A DNA stretch of 64,000 bases from Spirochaetaceae bacterium (GTDB taxonomy: Bacteria; Spirochaetota; Spirochaetia; Treponematales; Treponemataceae): assembly GCA_017936665.1 (NCBI GenBank), contig JAGBFB010000031.1, positions 62,001 to 126,000 on the forward strand, in the 5' to 3' direction. The notes under the pieces were generated by a model. The model saw only the letters and a list, made by a program, of their open reading frames with translations, made no database searches and was not told where the DNA came from. Within the stretch, counting starts at the first letter, position 1. Every line of letters starts with the position of its first letter. The translations under genes and the position numbers were made by a program. Shown here piece after piece: positions 36,383-46,911 of this stretch.

Positions 36383-37198
36383 ATGAGTATTTTTCAAGCA
36401 TTAGTTTTAGGTATTTTACAAGGAATTGCAGAATTCCTTCCAATTTCAAGTTCTGGACATCTTGCAGTTGTGCAAAATCTTTTTGGGCTAGAACTTCCTT
36501 TAGTTTTTGATGTTTGCTTACACTTAGCAACTTTACTAGCAGTAATTTTAGTTTTTAGAAAACGAATTTGGTCTTTACTTTGCGTTTTTGGCAGATGGAT
36601 TACAAGAAAAACTAAACCAGAAGATTCAATAGAACTTTCTATGATAGTTGCAATCTTAGTTGGAACATTTGTAACAGGTATCATGGGAATTGTAGCAAGT
36701 AAATTTTTACCTGACTTTCCTATAAAATTAATTTTTGTTGGCTTTATTATCACAGCATTTTTGTTGATTTTTTCAAGTAAAGTAAGCGAAAAAGAACAAA
36801 AAGACGAAAATTCCACAGAGTTAAGCAAAATATCTGTAAAACAAGGTCTTTTTGTAGGATTTGCCCAAGGAATTGGAACTTTGCCAGGAATTTCTAGAAG
36901 TGGAATTACAATTTCTGCTTCTCTTTTTGCAAAAATCAATAGAGAAACTGCTGGAGAATTTTCTTTCTTGCTTTCTATTCCTGCAATTTTGGGAGCCTTC
37001 ATCCTAGAAGCAAAAGATTTAGGAACTTTAACTCAAACAATTTCTGTACTTCCTTTAGCATTAGGATGTCTTGCAGCCTTTACATCTGGAGTAGTATCCC
37101 TTACAATGTTAATGAAGCTTATCAAAAAAGGTAAGTTACAGTGGTTTGCATACTATCTCATTCCACTTGGAATTTTAGGATTAATTTTTATTAAATAA
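36383..37198 (+). CDS. uppP: Undecaprenyl-diphosphate phosphatase
   Basis: UppP recycles the lipid carrier for cell-wall synthesis and gives bacitracin tolerance. The N-terminal ALVLGILQGIAEFLPISSSG with GHLAVVQ, and LPGISRSGITISASL near residue 170, are the two active-site blocks. About eight TM segments are visible in 271 residues. Its stop overlaps the next start as TAATG, so it is coupled to a small ATPase gene, an unexpected partner. Confidence 0.95.
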   Translation: MSIFQALVLGILQGIAEFLPISSSGHLAVVQNLFGLELPLVFDVCLHLATLLAVILVFRKRIWSLLCVFGRWITRKTKPEDSIELSMIVAILVGTFVTGIMGIVASKFLPDFPIKLIFVGFIITAFLLIFSSKVSEKEQKDENSTELSKISVKQGLFVGFAQGIGTLPGISRSGITISASLFAKINRETAGEFSFLLSIPAILGAFILEAKDLGTLTQTISVLPLALGCLAAFTSGVVSLTMLMKLIKKGKLQWFAYYLIPLGILGLIFIK

Positions 37199-37638
37199 TG
37201 AAAGAAGAACGTAACGAAACAATAATTGAATTTGACTCAGAGCCTTTTAATTTTGAAAAAGCAGGATTTGCTTCTACAGAAATAAAAAAACATCTGAAGT
37301 CTTTAAAAATTGATTCTTCAATAATAAGACGAATTGGAATTGCAAGTTACGAATTAGAAATAAATCAAGTTATTCATTCCCTTGGTGGAAAAATGATTTA
37401 TCATATTGATGACGAAAAAGTTATAATTGAAGCAGTAGACATTGGGCCAGGAATTCCTGACATACAAAAAGCCTTAACCGAAGGATTTTCTACTGCTTCA
37501 GAAAAAGTACGCTCCATGGGTTTTGGAGCAGGAATGGGGATTCCAAACACAAAAAGAGTTTCAGACGAATTTACCCTTGAATCTTCTACCACTGGAACTA
37601 GAGCAGTTGCTACTATATATTTCAATGGAGAAAAATAA
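37198..37638 (+). CDS. HATPase-type ATP-binding protein (anti-sigma factor-like)
   Basis: The 146-residue protein is a GHKL ATPase like RsbW/SpoIIAB: ASYELEINQVIHSLGG is the N-box, EAVDIGPGIPDI the G1 box and GFGAGMGIPNTKRVSD the G2 box. Such proteins act as anti-sigma kinases or as small regulatory ATPases. It overlaps uppP and the following DRTGG-like gene by one base each. In other anaerobes this protein, the DRTGG protein and the PHP protein are often found beside the NuoE/NuoF/HydA hydrogenase genes, which here lie 14 kb away. Confidence 0.82.
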   Translation: MKEERNETIIEFDSEPFNFEKAGFASTEIKKHLKSLKIDSSIIRRIGIASYELEINQVIHSLGGKMIYHIDDEKVIIEAVDIGPGIPDIQKALTEGFSTASEKVRSMGFGAGMGIPNTKRVSDEFTLESSTTGTRAVATIYFNGEK

Positions 37639-37973
37639 TGACAATCAAACAAATGCAAGAAAAACTAAACTTAGAAGGAGTTTCTTTAGATTCTGAAAAT
37701 TCTGAAATTACAGAAGTTTACACCTCAGACCTTCTTAGCGACATTATGGGAAATGCTCCTGAAAATTCTGTTTTAGTTACAATACAAGCCCATAAAAACA
37801 CAGTTGCAGTTGCAACCTTAAAAGAAAGTAAAGCAATCATCATTTGTAATAATCGACCCATCCCAGAAGATATGATTGAAGCTGCAAAATCTGAAGAAAT
37901 TTCAATTTTTAGAACTGAAATGAATCAATATCAAATTTCTGGAAAATTGTACAGCCTTATAGAATCCATTTAA
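37638..37973 (+). CDS. DRTGG-domain-like small protein
   Basis: This 111-residue protein has strand/helix alternation (EITEVYTSDLLSDIMGNA, SVLVTIQAHKNTVAVATL, KAIIICNNRPIPEDMI) resembling stand-alone DRTGG domains, a ligand-binding module also found in phosphotransacetylase-type proteins. The exact role is unknown. It is coupled to the upstream ATPase (TAATG) and followed by a PHP gene. Confidence 0.65.
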   Translation: MTIKQMQEKLNLEGVSLDSENSEITEVYTSDLLSDIMGNAPENSVLVTIQAHKNTVAVATLKESKAIIICNNRPIPEDMIEAAKSEEISIFRTEMNQYQISGKLYSLIESI

Positions 37974-37991
37974 AAGCTAAGGTAGAATTTT

Positions 37992-38744
37992 ATGGGAAGA
38001 ATTATAAAAGCAGATTTTCATATACATTCTTGCCTTTCTCCCTGTGGCGATTTATCAATGTCTCCAAGTGTAATCGTTGATTACTTAAAACAAAGAAATG
38101 TAAAGTTAGCTGCCTTAACAGACCATAATTCATCGCTAAATTGTAAAGCCTTTGCAGAATGTTGTGTAAAAAATGATATAATCCCTCTTTTTGGAATGGA
38201 ACTTCAAACTCAAGAAGAAATTCATCTTTTATGTCTTTTTGATAATCTTGAAATTTCAGAAAAGTTTAGCAATGAAATTTATGATTTACTTCCACCAATT
38301 CCAAATAATCCTGAAAAAATGGGGGATCAAGTTTATGTTGATTCTGAAGAAAACATCCTTGGGGAAGTAGAAAAATACCTTGTAACTTCGGCAGACCTTT
38401 CTATCGATGACGCAGTTGAATTTGTACATAAACTTGGAGGAATTGCAATTCCTGCCCACGCCGATAGAAGTGCTTTTTCATTAACAAGCCAGTTTGGAAT
38501 GATTACAGACGGAAACTGGGATGCTGTAGAATTAGTAAATTTACAAAATGCTCCAGAACACATAAAATCCACTTATCCCTTAACATCATCATCAGACGCC
38601 CATTACATCGAACATATTGCAAGAAGAACTTTTAATTTGGAAATTCAAGAAGATTCTCTTGTAAAAACAGATAAATTTGCAAACATCAACGAAGTAAAAA
38701 AGGCTCTTGAAAAATTAATTGTAAAAAATTTAAACTTACAGTAA
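37992..38744 (+). CDS. PHP-domain metal-dependent phosphoesterase
   Basis: The N-terminal ADFHIHSCLSPCGDLSMSP carries the first metal motif HxH; AALTDHNS, then GMELQTQEEIHLLCLF, PAHADRSAFS and SSDAHY supply the other His and Asp ligands. Stand-alone PHP proteins of about 250 residues hydrolyse phosphate esters or nucleotides. AAGGTAG precedes the start. It is the last gene of the uppP-ATPase-DRTGG set. Confidence 0.88.
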   Translation: MGRIIKADFHIHSCLSPCGDLSMSPSVIVDYLKQRNVKLAALTDHNSSLNCKAFAECCVKNDIIPLFGMELQTQEEIHLLCLFDNLEISEKFSNEIYDLLPPIPNNPEKMGDQVYVDSEENILGEVEKYLVTSADLSIDDAVEFVHKLGGIAIPAHADRSAFSLTSQFGMITDGNWDAVELVNLQNAPEHIKSTYPLTSSSDAHYIEHIARRTFNLEIQEDSLVKTDKFANINEVKKALEKLIVKNLNLQ

Positions 38745-38932
38745 CAAAAAATTTTATATAAAGTGTTTGTTTTAAAGAAAATTACAAAATATATGTATTT
38801 AAATGTAAAATCTAAGTAATTCTTCACACAAGATTCGGGTGTAATTTAATATTTTAAACATACAATTCATAGACAATTATCAAGTTCTATGTAATAATTT
38901 TACTTGAGAATATTGTTCAAGAGGAGGTTTCA

Positions 38933-39331
38933 ATGAAAACAGCAAAAATCAAATTTTTATCAATTCTCGTTTTGCTCTGCATTAGTTTGCCAATTTTTGC
39001 ACAAGAATATGTTTATGTTTCTGTAGAAAAAGCAGAAATAAAAGAAGGAATAGGACTCTTTGCAAATAAAGTTGCACAAGTTAAATATGGAACAAAACTT
39101 ATCGTTTTAGAAAATTCTATAAAAGACGAATGGATAAAAGTTTGTCATACAAAAGATGAAAGCATTTCAGGTTGGATACTTTCTTCAAATGTAACAAAAA
39201 AACGAATTGTAAGATTTTTGAATAACAAAAGTTCTGCTGAAAAAGAACAAGCCTTAGCTGGGAAAGGTTCTTCAATAGAAAAATCAAATTCTGACAATAA
39301 CAATTTTAATTCATTAAAAAAAATTAATTAA
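38933..39331 (+). CDS. Periplasmic bacterial SH3 domain protein (copy 1)
   Basis: The 132-residue product has a signal peptide (about residues 1-24, ending IFAQ) and one bacterial SH3 domain (about 25-90) with YVYVSVEKAEIKEG, VKYGTKLIVLE, KDEWIKV and SGWILSSNV. These domains bind cell-wall peptides or proteins. The tail is Ser/Asn-rich. It is about two-thirds identical in sequence to the next gene over the SH3 part, from a tandem duplication. GGAGG lies upstream. First gene of a set leading to M48 and a cyclase. Confidence 0.82.
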   Translation: MKTAKIKFLSILVLLCISLPIFAQEYVYVSVEKAEIKEGIGLFANKVAQVKYGTKLIVLENSIKDEWIKVCHTKDESISGWILSSNVTKKRIVRFLNNKSSAEKEQALAGKGSSIEKSNSDNNNFNSLKKIN

Positions 39332-39355
39332 TTTATTTTTGAGGAATAAAAGCAA

Positions 39356-39817
39356 ATGAAAACAGCAAAAATTTATTTTTTTACAATTATCTTTTTATTA
39401 TGCATGAACTTTCCGATTTTTGCTCAAGGATATGTTTATGTTTCTGTAGAAAAAGCAGAAATTAAAGATGGAACAGGCTTTTTTGCAAGTAAAGTTGCAC
39501 AAGTAGAATATGGAACAAAACTTATTGTTTTAGAAAATTCGATAAAAGACAAATGGATAAAGGTAGCAGAAGACTACAATAATGAAAATTGTGGTTGGAT
39601 TTTATCATCCAATGTAACAAAGAAAAGAGTGATAAATGATTATAATAACAATTCCAATTCGAGCAAAGAAATTGCTTTAGCAGGAAAAGGCTTTTCAGAA
39701 GGAGATATTTCTTTAGAAGTAAAAAACTTTGATGCCGTTGATGTAATTGAAAAAAATACATTATCAAATGAGGAATTAAAACAATTCATTACCGAAGGAA
39801 AATTAAATGTTGAATAA
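39356..39817 (+). CDS. Periplasmic bacterial SH3 domain protein (copy 2)
   Basis: This 153-residue paralogue has the same signal peptide type and SH3 domain (YVYVSVEKAEIKDGTGFFAS, VEYGTKLIVLE, DKWIKV, CGWILSSNV) and a longer acidic tail. It differs from copy 1 mainly in that tail, so it may have taken on a different partner. Its 3' end overlaps the M48 gene start by 11 bases, so the two are translationally coupled. Confidence 0.82.
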   Translation: MKTAKIYFFTIIFLLCMNFPIFAQGYVYVSVEKAEIKDGTGFFASKVAQVEYGTKLIVLENSIKDKWIKVAEDYNNENCGWILSSNVTKKRVINDYNNNSNSSKEIALAGKGFSEGDISLEVKNFDAVDVIEKNTLSNEELKQFITEGKLNVE

Positions 39818-40691
39818 TATGATAAAACGAATTTTATTTTTTACTTTTACATTGGTATTTTTATCAATTTCATTTTCTTGCGTTTCATTGAGAGAACTTA
39901 TTTTTGCAGATAAAAATGAAATAATTCAGAAAGCTGTAGTTGCAACCTTCGAAGGTGGTAAAAATGTTGCAGAAGCATATAACTTTACTCCAGAAGAAAC
40001 TTATAATTTAGGAAGAGCTGTTGCAGCCAGTGCAATAGGAAATAACAATCTATATACAAATGAAGAACTTTACAAATACTTAAATTCAATTTGTCAAACT
40101 ATAGTAATAAATTCTGATGGAGTAAATCCATATAAGGGATATTATATTGGTGTAATTGATTCTAATGTAATCAATGCCTTTGCAACGCCAGGTGGACATA
40201 TTTTAATTACAAAAGGTATGTTGAATAGTGTAAAATCAGAAGATGAACTTGCAGCAGTAATTGCTCACGAAATAAGTCATATTCAACTTGAACACAATAT
40301 GAAAGCAATTCAATCCAATGCATGGACAACAGGAATTTCAAATATTATCGCATCTCCTTTTGAAGACGAATTTTTATCTAACGCATTTACTTCCATGACT
40401 ACAACTCTTTTAGATTCTGGATATTCTCAAAATACAGAATTTGAAGCAGATGAAAATGCTATAAAACTTATGAATAAAACTGGATATAATCCAAATGCTA
40501 TGTTAGCAATGTTAGAAAATTTGCAAAAAAACACAAGCAGTAATTACTCTCTAGGTTTTGGGAAAACTCACCCTTCTCCACAACAAAGAATCAATGAAGC
40601 AAACAAAGTTCTAAGAAAAATAAAACAAATGGATAACTATAACGAAGAAAGTAGAATTTCTCGATTTGAACAAGCCAAACAATATTTTTAA
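39807..40691 (+). CDS. M48-family metalloprotease lipoprotein
   Basis: The zinc motif HEISHIQLEH near residue 152 and the third ligand in EFEADENAIKLM near 213 identify an M48 peptidase of the BepA/LoiP type. The N-terminal signal ends SISFSC, a lipobox, so the enzyme is probably anchored to a membrane facing the periplasm. The ATG at 39807 has AAGGA upstream. M48 lipoproteins clear misfolded envelope proteins; here the linkage to SH3 proteins and a cyclase suggests a sensing role. Confidence 0.88.
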   Translation: MLNNMIKRILFFTFTLVFLSISFSCVSLRELIFADKNEIIQKAVVATFEGGKNVAEAYNFTPEETYNLGRAVAASAIGNNNLYTNEELYKYLNSICQTIVINSDGVNPYKGYYIGVIDSNVINAFATPGGHILITKGMLNSVKSEDELAAVIAHEISHIQLEHNMKAIQSNAWTTGISNIIASPFEDEFLSNAFTSMTTTLLDSGYSQNTEFEADENAIKLMNKTGYNPNAMLAMLENLQKNTSSNYSLGFGKTHPSPQQRINEANKVLRKIKQMDNYNEESRISRFEQAKQYF

Positions 40692-40706
40692 TTTTTTAGA
40701 GGCAAA

Positions 40707-42764
40707 ATGAAAATTAAAAGAATTTTGTTAATTACAATAATTACTAGTGCATTTATTTTTTGTGTAAATTTATTAGGTGGTTTTACTTTTTTAGAAAATA
40801 AAACTTATGATTTTAGAACAAAAATTACTGCAAGCAATTCAACATCAGAAGAATTATTTGTAATTTTAATTGACCAAAACAGTCTTGATTGGGCTAGCGA
40901 ACAAATGAATTGGAGTTGGCCATGGCCAAGAAGTGCTTATGGTGATATCGTAAATTTTTTTAATTTGGCTAATTCTAAAGCTGTAACTTTTGATGTAATT
41001 TTTTCTGAAGATTCTATTTACGGAAAAGAAGATGACGAAAACTTTGCAAAGGCCTGTAAAGATTTTGGCAAAGTTGTACAAATTCAATTTTATGATAGTG
41101 CTTCAAACAATCCAGAAATTCCCGTTACTTCAATTTCAAAAATCGATTCAAATTCAGCCCTGCAAGGAAACATAAATAGCATTCCAGATTCAGACTCAAT
41201 CATAAGAAGATGCAGATTATTTTACAACCGAAACAATGAAGAATTTCCAACACTTGCATCAAGTACTTTCATTGTAGGAAGCGAAAATTTTTCAAAAGAT
41301 AATTTTAAATCAACCGAAGAATATAAACATCTAAAAAAAATTAAAACAGATAAAGATAACAGCGTCTTGTTAAAATATAAAAAAGGTTTAGAATCTTACA
41401 TTCCTTATAGTGCAAGTGATATTTTGCAAAGTTATTACGCAATACAAAAAGGCGAAGAACCAATTTTATATCCAGAAGATTTTACCGATTCATATATTTT
41501 CTTTGGTTATTACGCACCAGGTCTATTTGATATTTGTTCTACACCTCTTTCTTCAACTTATCCTGGAGTGGGAGTTCACATTACACTTCTTGATAATATT
41601 TTACAAAATGAATTTATTCATAAAAGTCATATAATATTAAATTTATTTTTAATTTTATTTACAGCTTTCATAACAACTTTCTTAATTCAATTTTTTGAAA
41701 GAAAATTTGGAATCAAGCGAACAATTTTATTTAGTAGTTTATTCATTATTATTTTAATTTTATCATATTTAACAATTTGTTTTTATGCTTTTAGATTAGG
41801 ATTATGGTTACCATTTGTAAGTATTTTATTTTCAATCATACTTTCTTATACAATCACTTTTTTTGTAAGTTACAACACAGAAGGAAAACAAAAACGATAC
41901 ATAAAAGAAGCATTTAAACAATATTTAAGTCCAGTAGTAATTGAACAATTAATTTTAAATCCAGATAAATTGAAATTAGGGGGAGAACGTAGAGAAATCA
42001 GTATTTTCTTTTCTGATATTCAAGGATTCACTTCTATTTCAGAAAAATTAAGTCCCGAAAAACTTACTGAATTTTTAAATGTCTATCTTTCAAAAATCAC
42101 TGATATAATTTTAGAATCTGGTGGAACAATTGACAAATATGAAGGTGATGCCATTATTGCATTTTGGAATGCACCAACGGAAATATCAAATCACGCACAA
42201 CGAGCAATAGAAACAGCAATTAAATGCCAAAAAGAAATTCAAAAAAATAAAAATGAATTACAAAAAATTTGTAACACAGAAATCAAAACACGAATTGGAA
42301 TAAACACAGGATTTGCAGTTGTGGGCAACATGGGTTCTTCAAAAAGATTTGACTACACAATGCTTGGAGACTCTGTAAACTTAGCATCTCGTTTAGAAGG
42401 AATTAATAAACAATTTGGACTTTACACATTATGTTCTGAAGAAACAAAATTACAAGCAGAAAAATTTGGTAGTAAATTAATTTTTGTTGAAATTGCAAAA
42501 GTTCAAGTTGTTGGTAAGAGCATTGCAGTAAAAATTTTTAATCCAATGCAAAAAGAAGATTACACAGCAAACAAATTACTTTGGAATAAATTTGAAGAAG
42601 GAAGAAATTTCTTTTATCAAGGTGAAATTGAAAAAGCTAAATTATGTTTTAAATCCATTGCTCAAGAATTACCAGTTGCTCAAAAATATTTTGAAAAATG
42701 TAATTCTACAAAACTTCCTGTTGAAGAAAATTTAAAAGGAATTTGGATTGCAACTGAAAAATAA
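40707..42764 (+). CDS. CHASE2-domain class III adenylate cyclase
   Basis: The 685-residue membrane protein has TM1 (about 5-25), a periplasmic CHASE2 domain (about 30-305), three TM segments (about 308-395) and a cytosolic class III cyclase domain (about 425-620). Metal-binding Asp residues are in FFSDIQGFT and YEGDAIIAFW. The base-selecting pair is Lys (in IDKYEGD) and Asp (in RFDYTMLGD), as in adenylate cyclases, and the Asn/Arg pair is in VNLASRLE. It would make cAMP in response to an envelope signal. It is the last gene of the SH3-SH3-M48 set, 15 bases after M48. Confidence 0.92.
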   Translation: MKIKRILLITIITSAFIFCVNLLGGFTFLENKTYDFRTKITASNSTSEELFVILIDQNSLDWASEQMNWSWPWPRSAYGDIVNFFNLANSKAVTFDVIFSEDSIYGKEDDENFAKACKDFGKVVQIQFYDSASNNPEIPVTSISKIDSNSALQGNINSIPDSDSIIRRCRLFYNRNNEEFPTLASSTFIVGSENFSKDNFKSTEEYKHLKKIKTDKDNSVLLKYKKGLESYIPYSASDILQSYYAIQKGEEPILYPEDFTDSYIFFGYYAPGLFDICSTPLSSTYPGVGVHITLLDNILQNEFIHKSHIILNLFLILFTAFITTFLIQFFERKFGIKRTILFSSLFIIILILSYLTICFYAFRLGLWLPFVSILFSIILSYTITFFVSYNTEGKQKRYIKEAFKQYLSPVVIEQLILNPDKLKLGGERREISIFFSDIQGFTSISEKLSPEKLTEFLNVYLSKITDIILESGGTIDKYEGDAIIAFWNAPTEISNHAQRAIETAIKCQKEIQKNKNELQKICNTEIKTRIGINTGFAVVGNMGSSKRFDYTMLGDSVNLASRLEGINKQFGLYTLCSEETKLQAEKFGSKLIFVEIAKVQVVGKSIAVKIFNPMQKEDYTANKLLWNKFEEGRNFFYQGEIEKAKLCFKSIAQELPVAQKYFEKCNSTKLPVEENLKGIWIATEK

Positions 42765-42775
42765 TTTTGTATAAA

Positions 42776-44899
42776 CTAATATTCCATAAATTTTTGTACA
42801 GTGTGATATGAGTCTTCGCCATAATAAAGTAACTCATAAATAAACGTGCTTGATAAAATTTTTTTTCCGTATTCTCGGCTTTCTTCGTAAGGCAACATTT
42901 CCATCCAAATATCCATTGGAACATTTGGATATTTTTTTACCCAACTTCTAATTCTTGCTCTACCTGTGTTATAAGAAATTACAGAAAGCATTGTTGAACC
43001 TTCAAACAAACGAATCATATCACTTAAATAAAATGATCCAAAAGTAATATTTGTTTTTGCATCAAGTAAATCGTAATCTTTAATTCGTAATTTTCTAGCA
43101 ACATCAGAAGCGGTGGGAGACATCAATTGAGTTAATCCTGCTGCTCCTGCACTAGAAAAAACATCTTCATCAAAATAACTTTCGCTACGAATCAAACCAA
43201 ACAATAAACTTTCTGAAAGATTAAATTCTTTGCAAGATAATTTTACTAAATCATAAAAATAACAAGGATAAAATAATTTTAAAAGTTCTTCATCCTTACC
43301 GCTCCCATCACTAGAAAAAGCAGAACTTGCCACACGTAAAATTGTTGGATACAAATTTATATCAGAAATAAAATCTTGATTTAGTTTTTTTGCGTAAAAA
43401 CTTAAAACATCAGAACTAAGATATTTTTTATATTGCTGAATGATTTTATACATAGATTGAATTTTTTTATATTTTATACAAGCGTCTAACAAATTACAAA
43501 TTACAGTTGTTTTATTTTCATCCAATGAAAAAAAATCTGAAACTTGACACATATTTTGTAAAATATTTTTTGGCTCAAGACCAAGTTGCCATGCAGACAT
43601 TATCTGATAATAAATTGATGAGTGTGTATTTTCAAAAATTTTTCTAAAAATTTCACTTGGAAGATAAGAAGCAAAATTTTGTGAAGAAACAAATTCTTCT
43701 TTTATCAAACGAGCAGTTAAGTAAGCCCAACTTGATTTTATTTGTTCATCTGCAACTTGCTCAATGGTTGGATAAAATTTACAAAAAGCAGTCCACTGAC
43801 GAGTTGACAATAAATGCAATTTTAAATCTTTTAATAAATCTGAATAATAAAATTTATCTTTCCAGAAATTTCCATATTTTTTTATTCCATTCATAAGAGA
43901 TGAATAAGATTCTTTTTTTGATTGATTTAAATAATACCAAATTGCATTATCATAATTTTCATTTGTAATTGCATTTTCAGAAGCAAGCAAAAAACATTCT
44001 TTTGCATTGTTGTAAAATTGTGCTCCTGTTTTATCAAAAAGTCTTCCTGCATAAAAATATAAATAAAATAATTTTTCTTTTTGAACTTTACTATTATTTT
44101 CAAGATTCAAATTATCTGCAATTACTTTTATTTTTTGTGCAAATTCATTTTTTGTTTCAATATTAAAATTAGTTTTTATGATTTCAAAATTTCCGTATAA
44201 AAAGGATTTTCCAAAATCAGAAATCATCTGTGGCGAAAATTTAGAAATATCATCTAAAGATTCAAATATTTCAGATAGTTTTTCTAAAGCAAAATTATAA
44301 TTTTTGTTGAATAATTCAATTCTAAATTGCAAAATTAAATTTGTTCTTTTTCCAATTTCTGTATCATAAAAAAATCTTTCAGATGCAAATTCTTCAAAAA
44401 ATTTAATTTGATATTTTGAAAATTTTTCTTCTGTAAGCCAATTTAAAATTATGGAATTTTCTAAAGTGTTTTCTTTTTTTGCAAGTGAAAATACATAACA
44501 ATATTTTGCCCAATCAACATTTATTTCTTTTTTTTCTAAAAGTAATTTAGATGCAAGTTCTATCACCTGATTAAATTTTTGATTATCAACTAGAGATTGT
44601 AAATAATAATTATAAGTTTCTGCTTCTGGATTTTTTTTTGAATTTACTGCAAGTTTTGATAACTTTAACATTTTAGATTTAGGAATATTTAATTTTTCTA
44701 ATTCTTTTAAACTTAATAACACCTCAATACTCGAACCATTTTTTATTGCCTTTTCAAAATTTTTAGTAGCTTTCTCTTTTTGTTGAGATTCTAAATTTAC
44801 TAAACCTTGAACATAAAACTCGGACGAATTAGTACATCCTGCAAAACAGAATGTACTAATTAAAATTAATGAGAATATTTTTTTTACAGATATTATCAT
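42776..44899 (-). CDS. Lytic transglycosylase lipoprotein (SLT family)
   Basis: The 707-residue product has a lipoprotein signal (lipobox FAGC near residue 21), a long superhelical region of helix pairs (about 30-550) and a C-terminal SLT domain. The catalytic Glu is in LLFGLIRSESYFDED, followed by SSAGAAGLTQLMSPTASDVA and ISYNTGRARIRSWVK, the standard Slt70 motifs. It cleaves peptidoglycan to anhydro-muropeptides. It begins 4 bases after the LysM gene, without its own SD, so the two proteins are probably made together. Confidence 0.93.
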   Translation of the reverse strand: MIISVKKIFSLILISTFCFAGCTNSSEFYVQGLVNLESQQKEKATKNFEKAIKNGSSIEVLLSLKELEKLNIPKSKMLKLSKLAVNSKKNPEAETYNYYLQSLVDNQKFNQVIELASKLLLEKKEINVDWAKYCYVFSLAKKENTLENSIILNWLTEEKFSKYQIKFFEEFASERFFYDTEIGKRTNLILQFRIELFNKNYNFALEKLSEIFESLDDISKFSPQMISDFGKSFLYGNFEIIKTNFNIETKNEFAQKIKVIADNLNLENNSKVQKEKLFYLYFYAGRLFDKTGAQFYNNAKECFLLASENAITNENYDNAIWYYLNQSKKESYSSLMNGIKKYGNFWKDKFYYSDLLKDLKLHLLSTRQWTAFCKFYPTIEQVADEQIKSSWAYLTARLIKEEFVSSQNFASYLPSEIFRKIFENTHSSIYYQIMSAWQLGLEPKNILQNMCQVSDFFSLDENKTTVICNLLDACIKYKKIQSMYKIIQQYKKYLSSDVLSFYAKKLNQDFISDINLYPTILRVASSAFSSDGSGKDEELLKLFYPCYFYDLVKLSCKEFNLSESLLFGLIRSESYFDEDVFSSAGAAGLTQLMSPTASDVARKLRIKDYDLLDAKTNITFGSFYLSDMIRLFEGSTMLSVISYNTGRARIRSWVKKYPNVPMDIWMEMLPYEESREYGKKILSSTFIYELLYYGEDSYHTVQKFMEY

Positions 44900-44903
44900 A
44901 AAA

Positions 44904-46853
44904 TTATCTTGGTGGAATTGTAATTATTGTTCCAGAAATAATATAATCTGGATTTTCTAATTTATTATACTCTGCAATTACAGGATATAACCAAGGATTT
45001 TTGTAATATGTTCCAGCAATATCCCATAATGTATCACCCCATTTAACCTTGTATTCTACACCTTTAACTTCTTCTTTTATAGGTTCTGGTTCTACAGGGG
45101 TAACAGTCGGAGCTTCAACAATAACAATTTCATCTTCTTTTGCTTGTTCTTCTACAAATTCATCAATTTCTTGGTTTGATTCCTCAACTTCAGTTTCTAC
45201 TGGAACAGGAACTACATTTTCTACAGAAGTTTCTTCCTTTTCCCAAATAGAGTTTTCTTCAGAAACGTTTTTATCCTTCAGCTTTGATGGAGTCAAGAAC
45301 AAAATCAATAAAAGAGCAATTACACAAATTACAGCACAAATACTACAAATCAACACAGGAATTGAACAGCGTTTTTTCTCTGGACAGTCATTGTCCTCTT
45401 CTGTATCAACATATAAATCAGAGAATGATAAATCTGGACTAGGTATAGATTCATCTAAATCACCTGATGTATCTAAATTTGCTGCAAAGACATCATCAGA
45501 TTCATCAAGATTAATTTCTTCATCTATACTTCCAAAATCGTTTCCAATTCCAAAAAATCCATCGTCATTATCATCATCAATCTGATTTTCTTCTGGTTCT
45601 GATGTTGCAATATCACCAAAGTCAGGGAATTCCTCTTCATCTAGTGAAGATTCTTCTGAGTTAAAATCATTATCAAGAATAGAATCTTGCATAATATCGC
45701 TTTGAAATCCATTAGATTCATCAATATCATCTGTTACAGGAATATCTAATTCTGGCATATCATCTATTTCTTCTGAAGTTTCTACTGTTTCATCTGCAAA
45801 ATCTGGCATATCGTCTAATTCTGGCATTTCTTCCACTTCTTCTGAAGTTTCCGCTGTGTCGTCTGCAAAATCTGGCATATCGTCTAATGCTGGCATTGCT
45901 TCAATTTCTTCTGAAGTTTCTTCTGTGTCGTCTGCAAAATCTGGCATGTCGTCTAAAACTGGCATTTCATCTACTTCTTCTGAAGTTTCTTCTGTGTCCT
46001 CTGCAAAATCTGGCATGTCGTCTAATGCTGGCATTTCATCTACTTCTTCTGAAGTTTCTACTGTGTCCTCTGCAAAATCTGGCATGTCGTCTAATGCTGG
46101 CATATCTTCAATTTCTTCTGAAGATTCTACTTCTGTATCCTCTGCAAAATCTGGCATGTCGTCTAATGCTGGCATTTCTTCCACTTCTTCTGAAGATTCT
46201 ACTGAAACTTCTTCTGTGTCCTCTGCAAAATCTGGCATATCGTCTAATGCTGGCATTCCATCAATTTCTTCTGAAACTTCTGATTCCTCGATAAAATTAT
46301 TTACATTTTCAGAATTATCTTCTGTAATAAGTTCATCCATATCATCAAAATCATCAAGATTAAGTTCATCATCTTTAGAAAGTTCGTTATCCACAACTTC
46401 CTCCTGAGTAGCAATTGTATTATCAGCGAACTCATCAAGAAGAGCATCACCATTTATATTATCGGAATCTTCTGTTTCAATCATAGAAAAATCTGGAACA
46501 ATGGTTCTCTCTGAAGAATCCAAAGTTACTAGAGAAACTTTTGTCTCACTATGTTCTCCTGATTCGCAATCTTCGATAGAAGCTGATAAAACATTCTCTG
46601 AATCAATTTCGATTTTTAAATTCAAAGTAGGCGTTTCTTTTGGTCGTGGAAGTAAATTTTCAACTAATAAAGTATCAACATATTCTGCATCTTCCATATT
46701 ATCTGAAGAAGAACGATACAAATCTAACTGGACTGTTGTTTGATCATCTCGGACTGTTGTGAGTTCTATTGTTTGTACCTGAGGTTTCCCCTCTTCTAAG
46801 ATAGGATAAAAAGAACCATCTGCTAATTTTATCCCAATTTTATAATTTTCCAT
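44904..46853 (-). CDS. Membrane protein with Hsp70-SBD-like, acidic-repeat and LysM regions
   Basis: Residues about 1-115 resemble the Hsp70 substrate-binding beta-sandwich (IELTTVRDDQTTVQLDLYRS, then LLPRPKETPTLNLKIEID and NVLSASIEDCESGE) without any Hsp70 ATPase. About 195-380 hold eight acidic repeats of 22-27 residues built on E-E-x-x-x-MPALDDMPDFAEDT. One TM segment follows a KKR cluster (about 505-530), placing the N-terminus in the cytosol; a LysM domain (VKWGDTLWDIAGTYYKNPWL) ends the protein in the periplasm. I use the ATG at 46853 with AAGGTGA upstream. Function unknown; it may link the cytosol to peptidoglycan. Confidence 0.8.
   Translation of the reverse strand: MENYKIGIKLADGSFYPILEEGKPQVQTIELTTVRDDQTTVQLDLYRSSSDNMEDAEYVDTLLVENLLPRPKETPTLNLKIEIDSENVLSASIEDCESGEHSETKVSLVTLDSSERTIVPDFSMIETEDSDNINGDALLDEFADNTIATQEEVVDNELSKDDELNLDDFDDMDELITEDNSENVNNFIEESEVSEEIDGMPALDDMPDFAEDTEEVSVESSEEVEEMPALDDMPDFAEDTEVESSEEIEDMPALDDMPDFAEDTVETSEEVDEMPALDDMPDFAEDTEETSEEVDEMPVLDDMPDFADDTEETSEEIEAMPALDDMPDFADDTAETSEEVEEMPELDDMPDFADETVETSEEIDDMPELDIPVTDDIDESNGFQSDIMQDSILDNDFNSEESSLDEEEFPDFGDIATSEPEENQIDDDNDDGFFGIGNDFGSIDEEINLDESDDVFAANLDTSGDLDESIPSPDLSFSDLYVDTEEDNDCPEKKRCSIPVLICSICAVICVIALLLILFLTPSKLKDKNVSEENSIWEKEETSVENVVPVPVETEVEESNQEIDEFVEEQAKEDEIVIVEAPTVTPVEPEPIKEEVKGVEYKVKWGDTLWDIAGTYYKNPWLYPVIAEYNKLENPDYIISGTIITIPPR
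45741..46284 (-). repeat. Tandem coding repeat, eight units
   Basis: Units of about 66-81 bases, seven full and one partial, encode the acidic repeat of the LysM protein. The DNA copies are very similar, so unit number could change by recombination. The reverse strand gives long serine-rich open frames that are only shadows. Confidence 0.9.
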
Positions 46854-46911
46854 ACTATTCACCTTAGTTTAATGGTATTATGCTTATCAAATCTTGTCAA
46901 CGCTTTTTTTC

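Follow-up and report, generated by a model that had tools for sequence, protein, structure and literature searches.

A conserved SH3-M48-CHASE2-cyclase gene module of spirochaetes and its possible role in envelope signalling

Do the SH3 proteins, the M48 metallopeptidase and the CHASE2-bearing nucleotide cyclase that are encoded side by side in a spirochaete form one signalling system, and if so, what does the cyclase read? This question is raised by a locus lying in a 64,000-nucleotide stretch of a Spirochaetaceae bacterium genome (contig JAGBFB010000031.1, positions 62,001 to 126,000; hereafter the window). A sequence-only reading had described four genes separated by a 24-nt gap, an 11-nt overlap and a 15-nt gap, and every coordinate proved right, all four open reading frames being confirmed with that spacing (Table 1).

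Table 1. Features of the four-gene locus (positions are those of the window)
Feature	Position	Strand	Description
SH3a	38933..39331	+	signal peptide and bacterial SH3 domain; copy of SH3b whose tail stops after LAGKG
SH3b	39356..39817	+	signal peptide, bacterial SH3 domain and conserved C-terminal tail
SH3b conserved tail	39662..39814	+	KEIALAGKGFS...FDAVDVIE...ELKQFITEGKL; without Pfam family; helical by prediction in a relative
M48 metallopeptidase	39807..40691	+	probable lipoprotein
HEISH zinc-binding/catalytic motif (H154-H158)	40266..40280	+	third ligand Glu211 at 40437-40439
CHASE2-class III nucleotide (adenylate) cyclase	40707..42764	+	685 aa
CHASE2 sensor domain, residues 15-319	40749..41663	+	Pfam; flanked by hydrophobic segments (hydropathy)
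Cyclase catalytic domain	41991..42410	+	K477 at 42135-42137, D555 at 42369-42371
Possible promoter TAGACA-17-AATAAT, extended TG	38870..38898	+	consensus scan; first start codon about 35 nt downstream

Each start codon is preceded by a Shine-Dalgarno-like stretch, i.e. GAGGAGGT at 38921 (SH3a), TGAGGA at 39340 (SH3b), GAAGGA at 39794 (M48) and TAGAGG at 40697 (cyclase). The unit is preceded by a gap of 188 nt and a convergent gene lies 11 nt beyond its end. Scanning of the region for promoters and intrinsic terminators gave none above shuffled sequences, and the promoter candidate of Table 1 is therefore weak, as the count of such sites does not exceed that of the shuffles. Directly upstream (37198-38744), genes encoding a small HATPase protein, a DRTGG/HPr-kinase-N-like protein and a PHP-domain protein stand in a row.

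The last gene of the unit encodes a receptor-type cyclase. Its CHASE2 domain (PF05226; E 8.8e-45, 153.7 bits for a cut-off of 26.3) lies between membrane segments, hydropathy placing hydrophobic stretches near residues 6-24, 309-327, 340-358 and 370-388, i.e. one before the domain and about three after it. Pfam searches returned no sensor domain besides CHASE2, which bears out the earlier proposal that this domain is the only sensor of the protein. The catalytic domain matches Guanylate_cyc (E 7.8e-21), and the residue set of class III enzymes is complete in the window protein, as had been claimed: the metal-binding aspartates (D437 and D481), the adenine-selecting pair (K477 and D555) and the transition-state residues (N558 and R562). 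In an alignment of 145 cyclases, D437, D481 and K477 never vary, N558 and R562 occur in 144, and position 555 is Asp in 116 and Asn in 28. The window protein thus has the residues of a class III adenylate cyclase and is predicted to produce cAMP from ATP. Possible readers of this cAMP are the cyclic nucleotide-binding proteins of the genome. Two of them carry paired cNMP-binding domains, with nothing else recognized by Pfam (L260:1153-2334 and L261:1150-2394), and another one combines such binding with a BrkB-type domain.

To assess the conservation of the locus, relatives of its genes were searched and 90 stretches around the matches were collected, in which loci were annotated with local profiles for the SH3-tail protein, M48, CHASE2 and the catalytic domain. 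In addition, a genome scan was performed with the SH3 alignment over 84,980 species, yielding 335 relatives, the best 80 of which were used; all but one of these 80 are labelled spirochaetes. The order SH3-M48-CHASE2-cyclase was found at 54 of the 60 loci around relatives of the window genes and at 65 of the 80 scan loci (best 80 of 335), these counts including SH3-M48 fusions and doubled SH3-M48 units, and the two sets sharing some genomes. Contig ends and local rearrangements account for several of the exceptions; at one locus (L061) the cyclase gene lies 5 kb away on the opposite strand. In most loci the SH3 gene runs 4 or 1 nt into the M48 gene, and the flanking genes vary from one trio locus to another. 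A different order, cyclase-SH3-M48, occurs at six loci of more distant spirochaetes (L235, L236, L237, L247, L248 and L256). The adjacency of the three genes is far beyond chance, and the objection that the neighbours might not be conserved in related genomes fails completely. The conserved unit consists of three genes, SH3-M48-CHASE2-cyclase, and is distributed over several spirochaete families. One contig labelled Desulfobacterales also contains the full trio (L188:5001-8600), its nearest relatives among the collected loci being spirochaetes, which reflects either gene transfer or misbinning.

A single SH3 gene is present in nearly all relatives. In the window, SH3a and SH3b share 86 % nucleotide identity across their first 210 nt (dN 0.11 and dS 0.42 over the first 70 codons), and a profile of the C-terminal tail gives 9.3 bits with SH3a vs 60 bits with SH3b. 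The two genes are a recent, lineage-specific tandem duplication in which the SH3a copy lost the C-terminal tail. The proposal of two SH3 proteins in the system thus holds insofar as both genes exist, but the conserved unit has one, the second being a local duplicate. Likewise, the claim that SH3 proteins, M48 protease and CHASE2-cyclase belong to one system is borne out for the conserved, co-occurring trio but not for the second SH3 gene, which falls outside the unit. We rejected a conserved plan with two SH3 genes. Doubled units are found elsewhere (L082/L199, L161, L124 and L231) but differ in composition; at these same five loci, either the SH3-M48 pair or M48 alone is doubled inside the unit.

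With Pfam, the two window proteins score 25.5 and 25.1 bits against SH3_3 (PF08239; E 1.5e-5 and 2e-5), just under the cut-off of 27. Their SH3 fold is supported by the AlphaFold2 model of a relative in which SH3 and M48 are fused (L196), rather than by a model of the window proteins themselves: pLDDT exceeds 90 over this domain, and Foldseek aligned 62-65 columns of it at 1.2-1.9 A with 3npf and 3pvq (dipeptidyl-peptidase VI).

The C-terminal tail is a conserved stretch of about 50 residues (pattern ELALAGKGF…VD..E…F..G.L) that matched no Pfam family and appears to be an undescribed domain; it occurs once in the genome of the window. It is tied to the M48 gene, since all 164 SH3 copies adjoining an M48 gene possess it and it is gone from three (L090, L251 and L254) of the four family members that lack M48, these counts being small and their cases not independent. 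The fourth (L195) keeps its tail without an M48 gene and counts against the model developed below. The possibility that the tail is a copy of the M48 N-terminal helix was considered, as MAFFT aligned both, but was rejected on a profile-profile probability of 0.4 %. In three genomes (L172, L196 and L239), SH3 and M48 form a single polypeptide. The L196 model (pTM 0.70) comprises the SH3 barrel, the tail, predicted as four short helices with pLDDT mostly about 62-89, and the M48 domain; it was built from alignment A10, the M48-rich alignment A4 having failed on the SH3 half and A9 having misplaced the end of the tail. Because of these fusions and of the link between tail and M48 gene, the SH3-tail protein and M48 are best regarded as a pair. 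The trio is a real, previously undescribed module in which they act as such.

How this pair relates to the cyclase is best explained, in our opinion, by a three-part signalling module, a reading to which we give a probability of about 0.55. The SH3 protein would be exported and its C-terminal tail would engage the M48 protease, the two making up one periplasmic unit, in which M48 probably carries a lipid anchor. The state of this unit (free or bound, cut or uncut) would vary with some envelope condition; the periplasmic CHASE2 domain would read that state and switch the cytoplasmic cyclase, thereby altering cAMP. We infer physical contact, a signal that runs from SH3-M48 to CHASE2, and a cue that lies in the state of the envelope or wall. 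The SH3 protein may sense wall fragments, and M48 might cut the SH3 protein, as the earlier reading proposed, or else CHASE2 or a third protein.

The M48 protein of the window belongs to its peptidase family (PF01435; E 1.7e-29, 103 bits for a cut-off of 20.3), is the sole M48 gene product found in the 2.58-Mb genome and possesses H154, E155 and H158 (HEISH) together with the downstream E211. The earlier assignment as an M48 protease lipoprotein is thus upheld by the profile and the active-site residues, but lipoprotein status is likely rather than certain, the lipobox (FSC) being loose. HExxH is retained in 160 of 163 M48 relatives, which argues that the active site is under selection nearly everywhere. 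The three exceptions form one clade (f50: L249, L258 and L259), in which Met or Arg replaces the first His while the place in the operon is kept; these proteins, encoded between the SH3 and CHASE2-cyclase genes (L249:5131-5874, L258:3714-4457 and L259:5343-6086), are likely pseudoproteases. Such a degenerate active site counts against the signalling module as proposed. Proteolysis is probably dispensable in this clade, where binding seems enough, and is probably not needed in every version of the system.

Alternatively, M48 and the SH3 protein could carry no signal and be devoted to the maturation or quality control of the cyclase or of its CHASE2 domain. The closest named models to the window M48 are BepA and LoiP of Escherichia coli, which share with it a periplasmic M48 metalloprotease domain, and BepA is an assembly and quality-control protease; Foldseek likewise matched the M48 domain of L196 to BepA, as well as to 3c37. 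The tightness of the operon would fit a maturation role, and a clade with a degenerate active site would suit a chaperone-like function. However, the window M48 lacks the C-terminal (TPR) half of BepA and scores far under both NCBIfam cut-offs (NF052400, BepA: 95.4 bits for a cut-off of 570, over model positions 42-262 of 483 only; NF052399, LoiP: 69.9 bits for 365), and we know of no SH3-cyclase operon around either protein. Besides, the second CHASE2 cyclase of the genome has neither SH3 nor M48 neighbours, some SH3-M48 pairs have no cyclase nearby (L230, L232, L246, L252 and L253), and an SH3 domain with a conserved tail exceeds what a protease would need for maturation. We consider this explanation unlikely, while noting that pairs without a nearby cyclase count against the signalling module as well.

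The pair could also act downstream: M48 would remodel the envelope with SH3 as its partner, and co-transcription with the cyclase would serve shared regulation. The surroundings of the window locus are indeed wall-related: the convergent gene encodes a BB0259-type flagellar lytic transglycosylase (482 bits) and is followed by a LysM gene (together 42776-46862). The same two genes also follow the cyclase in several other genera (L061, L064, L070, L073, L074, L076 and L083), and the LysM protein of the window (44904-46862) contains an acidic unit like EEVDEMPALDDMPDFAEDT repeated many times in tandem. Against this role in output stands one locus (L255:1984-6203) in which the SH3-M48 pair is followed by a CHASE2-PAS-histidine kinase, so that the pair stays beside CHASE2 while the cyclase is replaced; the SH3 tail there has AG.KGF-like motif repeats. 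Moreover, all three genes are found together in the reordered loci. This swap of output suggests that the pair goes with CHASE2 as sensor and not with cAMP, albeit from one distant, incomplete genome in which the M48 frame is broken at a short tandem repeat. Since the second cyclase stands without the pair and the histidine kinase stands with it, we regard the pair as tied to CHASE2, which probably reads its state, and a downstream role as improbable.

Co-occurrence was further assessed over 145 family genomes, in which orthologues of both the SH3 protein and the cyclase are found in 66, neither in 77 and only one of them in two (one each way), the cyclase of one discordant genome beginning at a contig end. 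Many genomes without the trio carry another, longer cyclase, matching from the CHASE2 end onward. Across 114 loci, the three proteins show correlated pairwise distances (r 0.79-0.83), as co-inheritance predicts, a correlation that vertical descent alone also explains. It is very unlikely that SH3-M48 is one functional pair whose linkage to the cyclase is inherited and not functional, since, even though SH3 and M48 are tighter than M48 and cyclase and the pair is apart from the cyclase in several genomes (L061, L250, L252 and L253), co-occurrence with the cyclase orthologue is near-perfect and the linkage survives altered gene order and flanks.

Returning to the signalling module, a wider form of it may be tentatively put forward, in which SH3 and M48 (or a pseudoprotease) would constitute a proteolysis-gated ligand switch for CHASE2, widespread in spirochaetes, with the tail as coupling element and with cAMP and phosphorelay as interchangeable outputs; we hold this generalization to be possible rather than probable.

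Full-text literature searches, which covered a minority of subscription papers, returned no description of an SH3-M48-CHASE2-cyclase set, in agreement with the initial reading, which knew of no such system. The parts belong to known families and the overall plan recalls YfiBNR of Pseudomonas aeruginosa, which shows that one sensor can be built from a membrane cyclase together with a lipoprotein and a small periplasmic protein (PMC2837407). Like the trio, YfiBNR is an operon of three genes, which encode a membrane nucleotide cyclase bearing a periplasmic sensor, a small regulator in the periplasm and a lipoprotein, the last of which may signal the condition of the envelope. In contrast, YfiN is a GGDEF protein making c-di-GMP, its partners are YfiR and an OmpA/Pal-like lipoprotein, and the system has no protease, SH3 or CHASE2. 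Conversely, neither GGDEF, YfiR nor an OmpA-like lipoprotein is found among the four window proteins, and the likeness is one of plan only. In Sinorhizobium meliloti, the CHASE2 cyclases CyaD1, CyaD2 and CyaK answer a protein cue by way of NsrA, their cAMP production needing, as might that of the trio, an additional envelope protein; this partner is an outer-membrane beta-barrel, and the available part of that source mentions no M48 or SH3 partner (PMC13001267). In magnetotactic bacteria, a conserved gene for a CHASE2 cyclase comes next after mtxA, whose product has a signal peptide. MtxA is unrelated to the trio proteins, TPR and Ig-like folds being discussed for it, with no protease mentioned in the available part of the paper (PMC4439547).

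Most bacterial adenylate cyclases that have extracytoplasmic sensors, especially CHASE2, respond to inputs as yet unknown. The module described here gives a CHASE2 receptor two dedicated periplasmic partners, the protease and the SH3 protein with its tail, and does so in a phylum in which cAMP signalling and envelope sensing have been little studied. The question of CHASE2 input thereby becomes testable with three genes, and the tail is a new conserved domain to study. Such a test is feasible because the trio is present in named, sequenced species (Treponema putidum, T. parvum and Breznakiella homolactica). As a whole, the trio looks like a previously undescribed reporter of envelope state to the cell interior.
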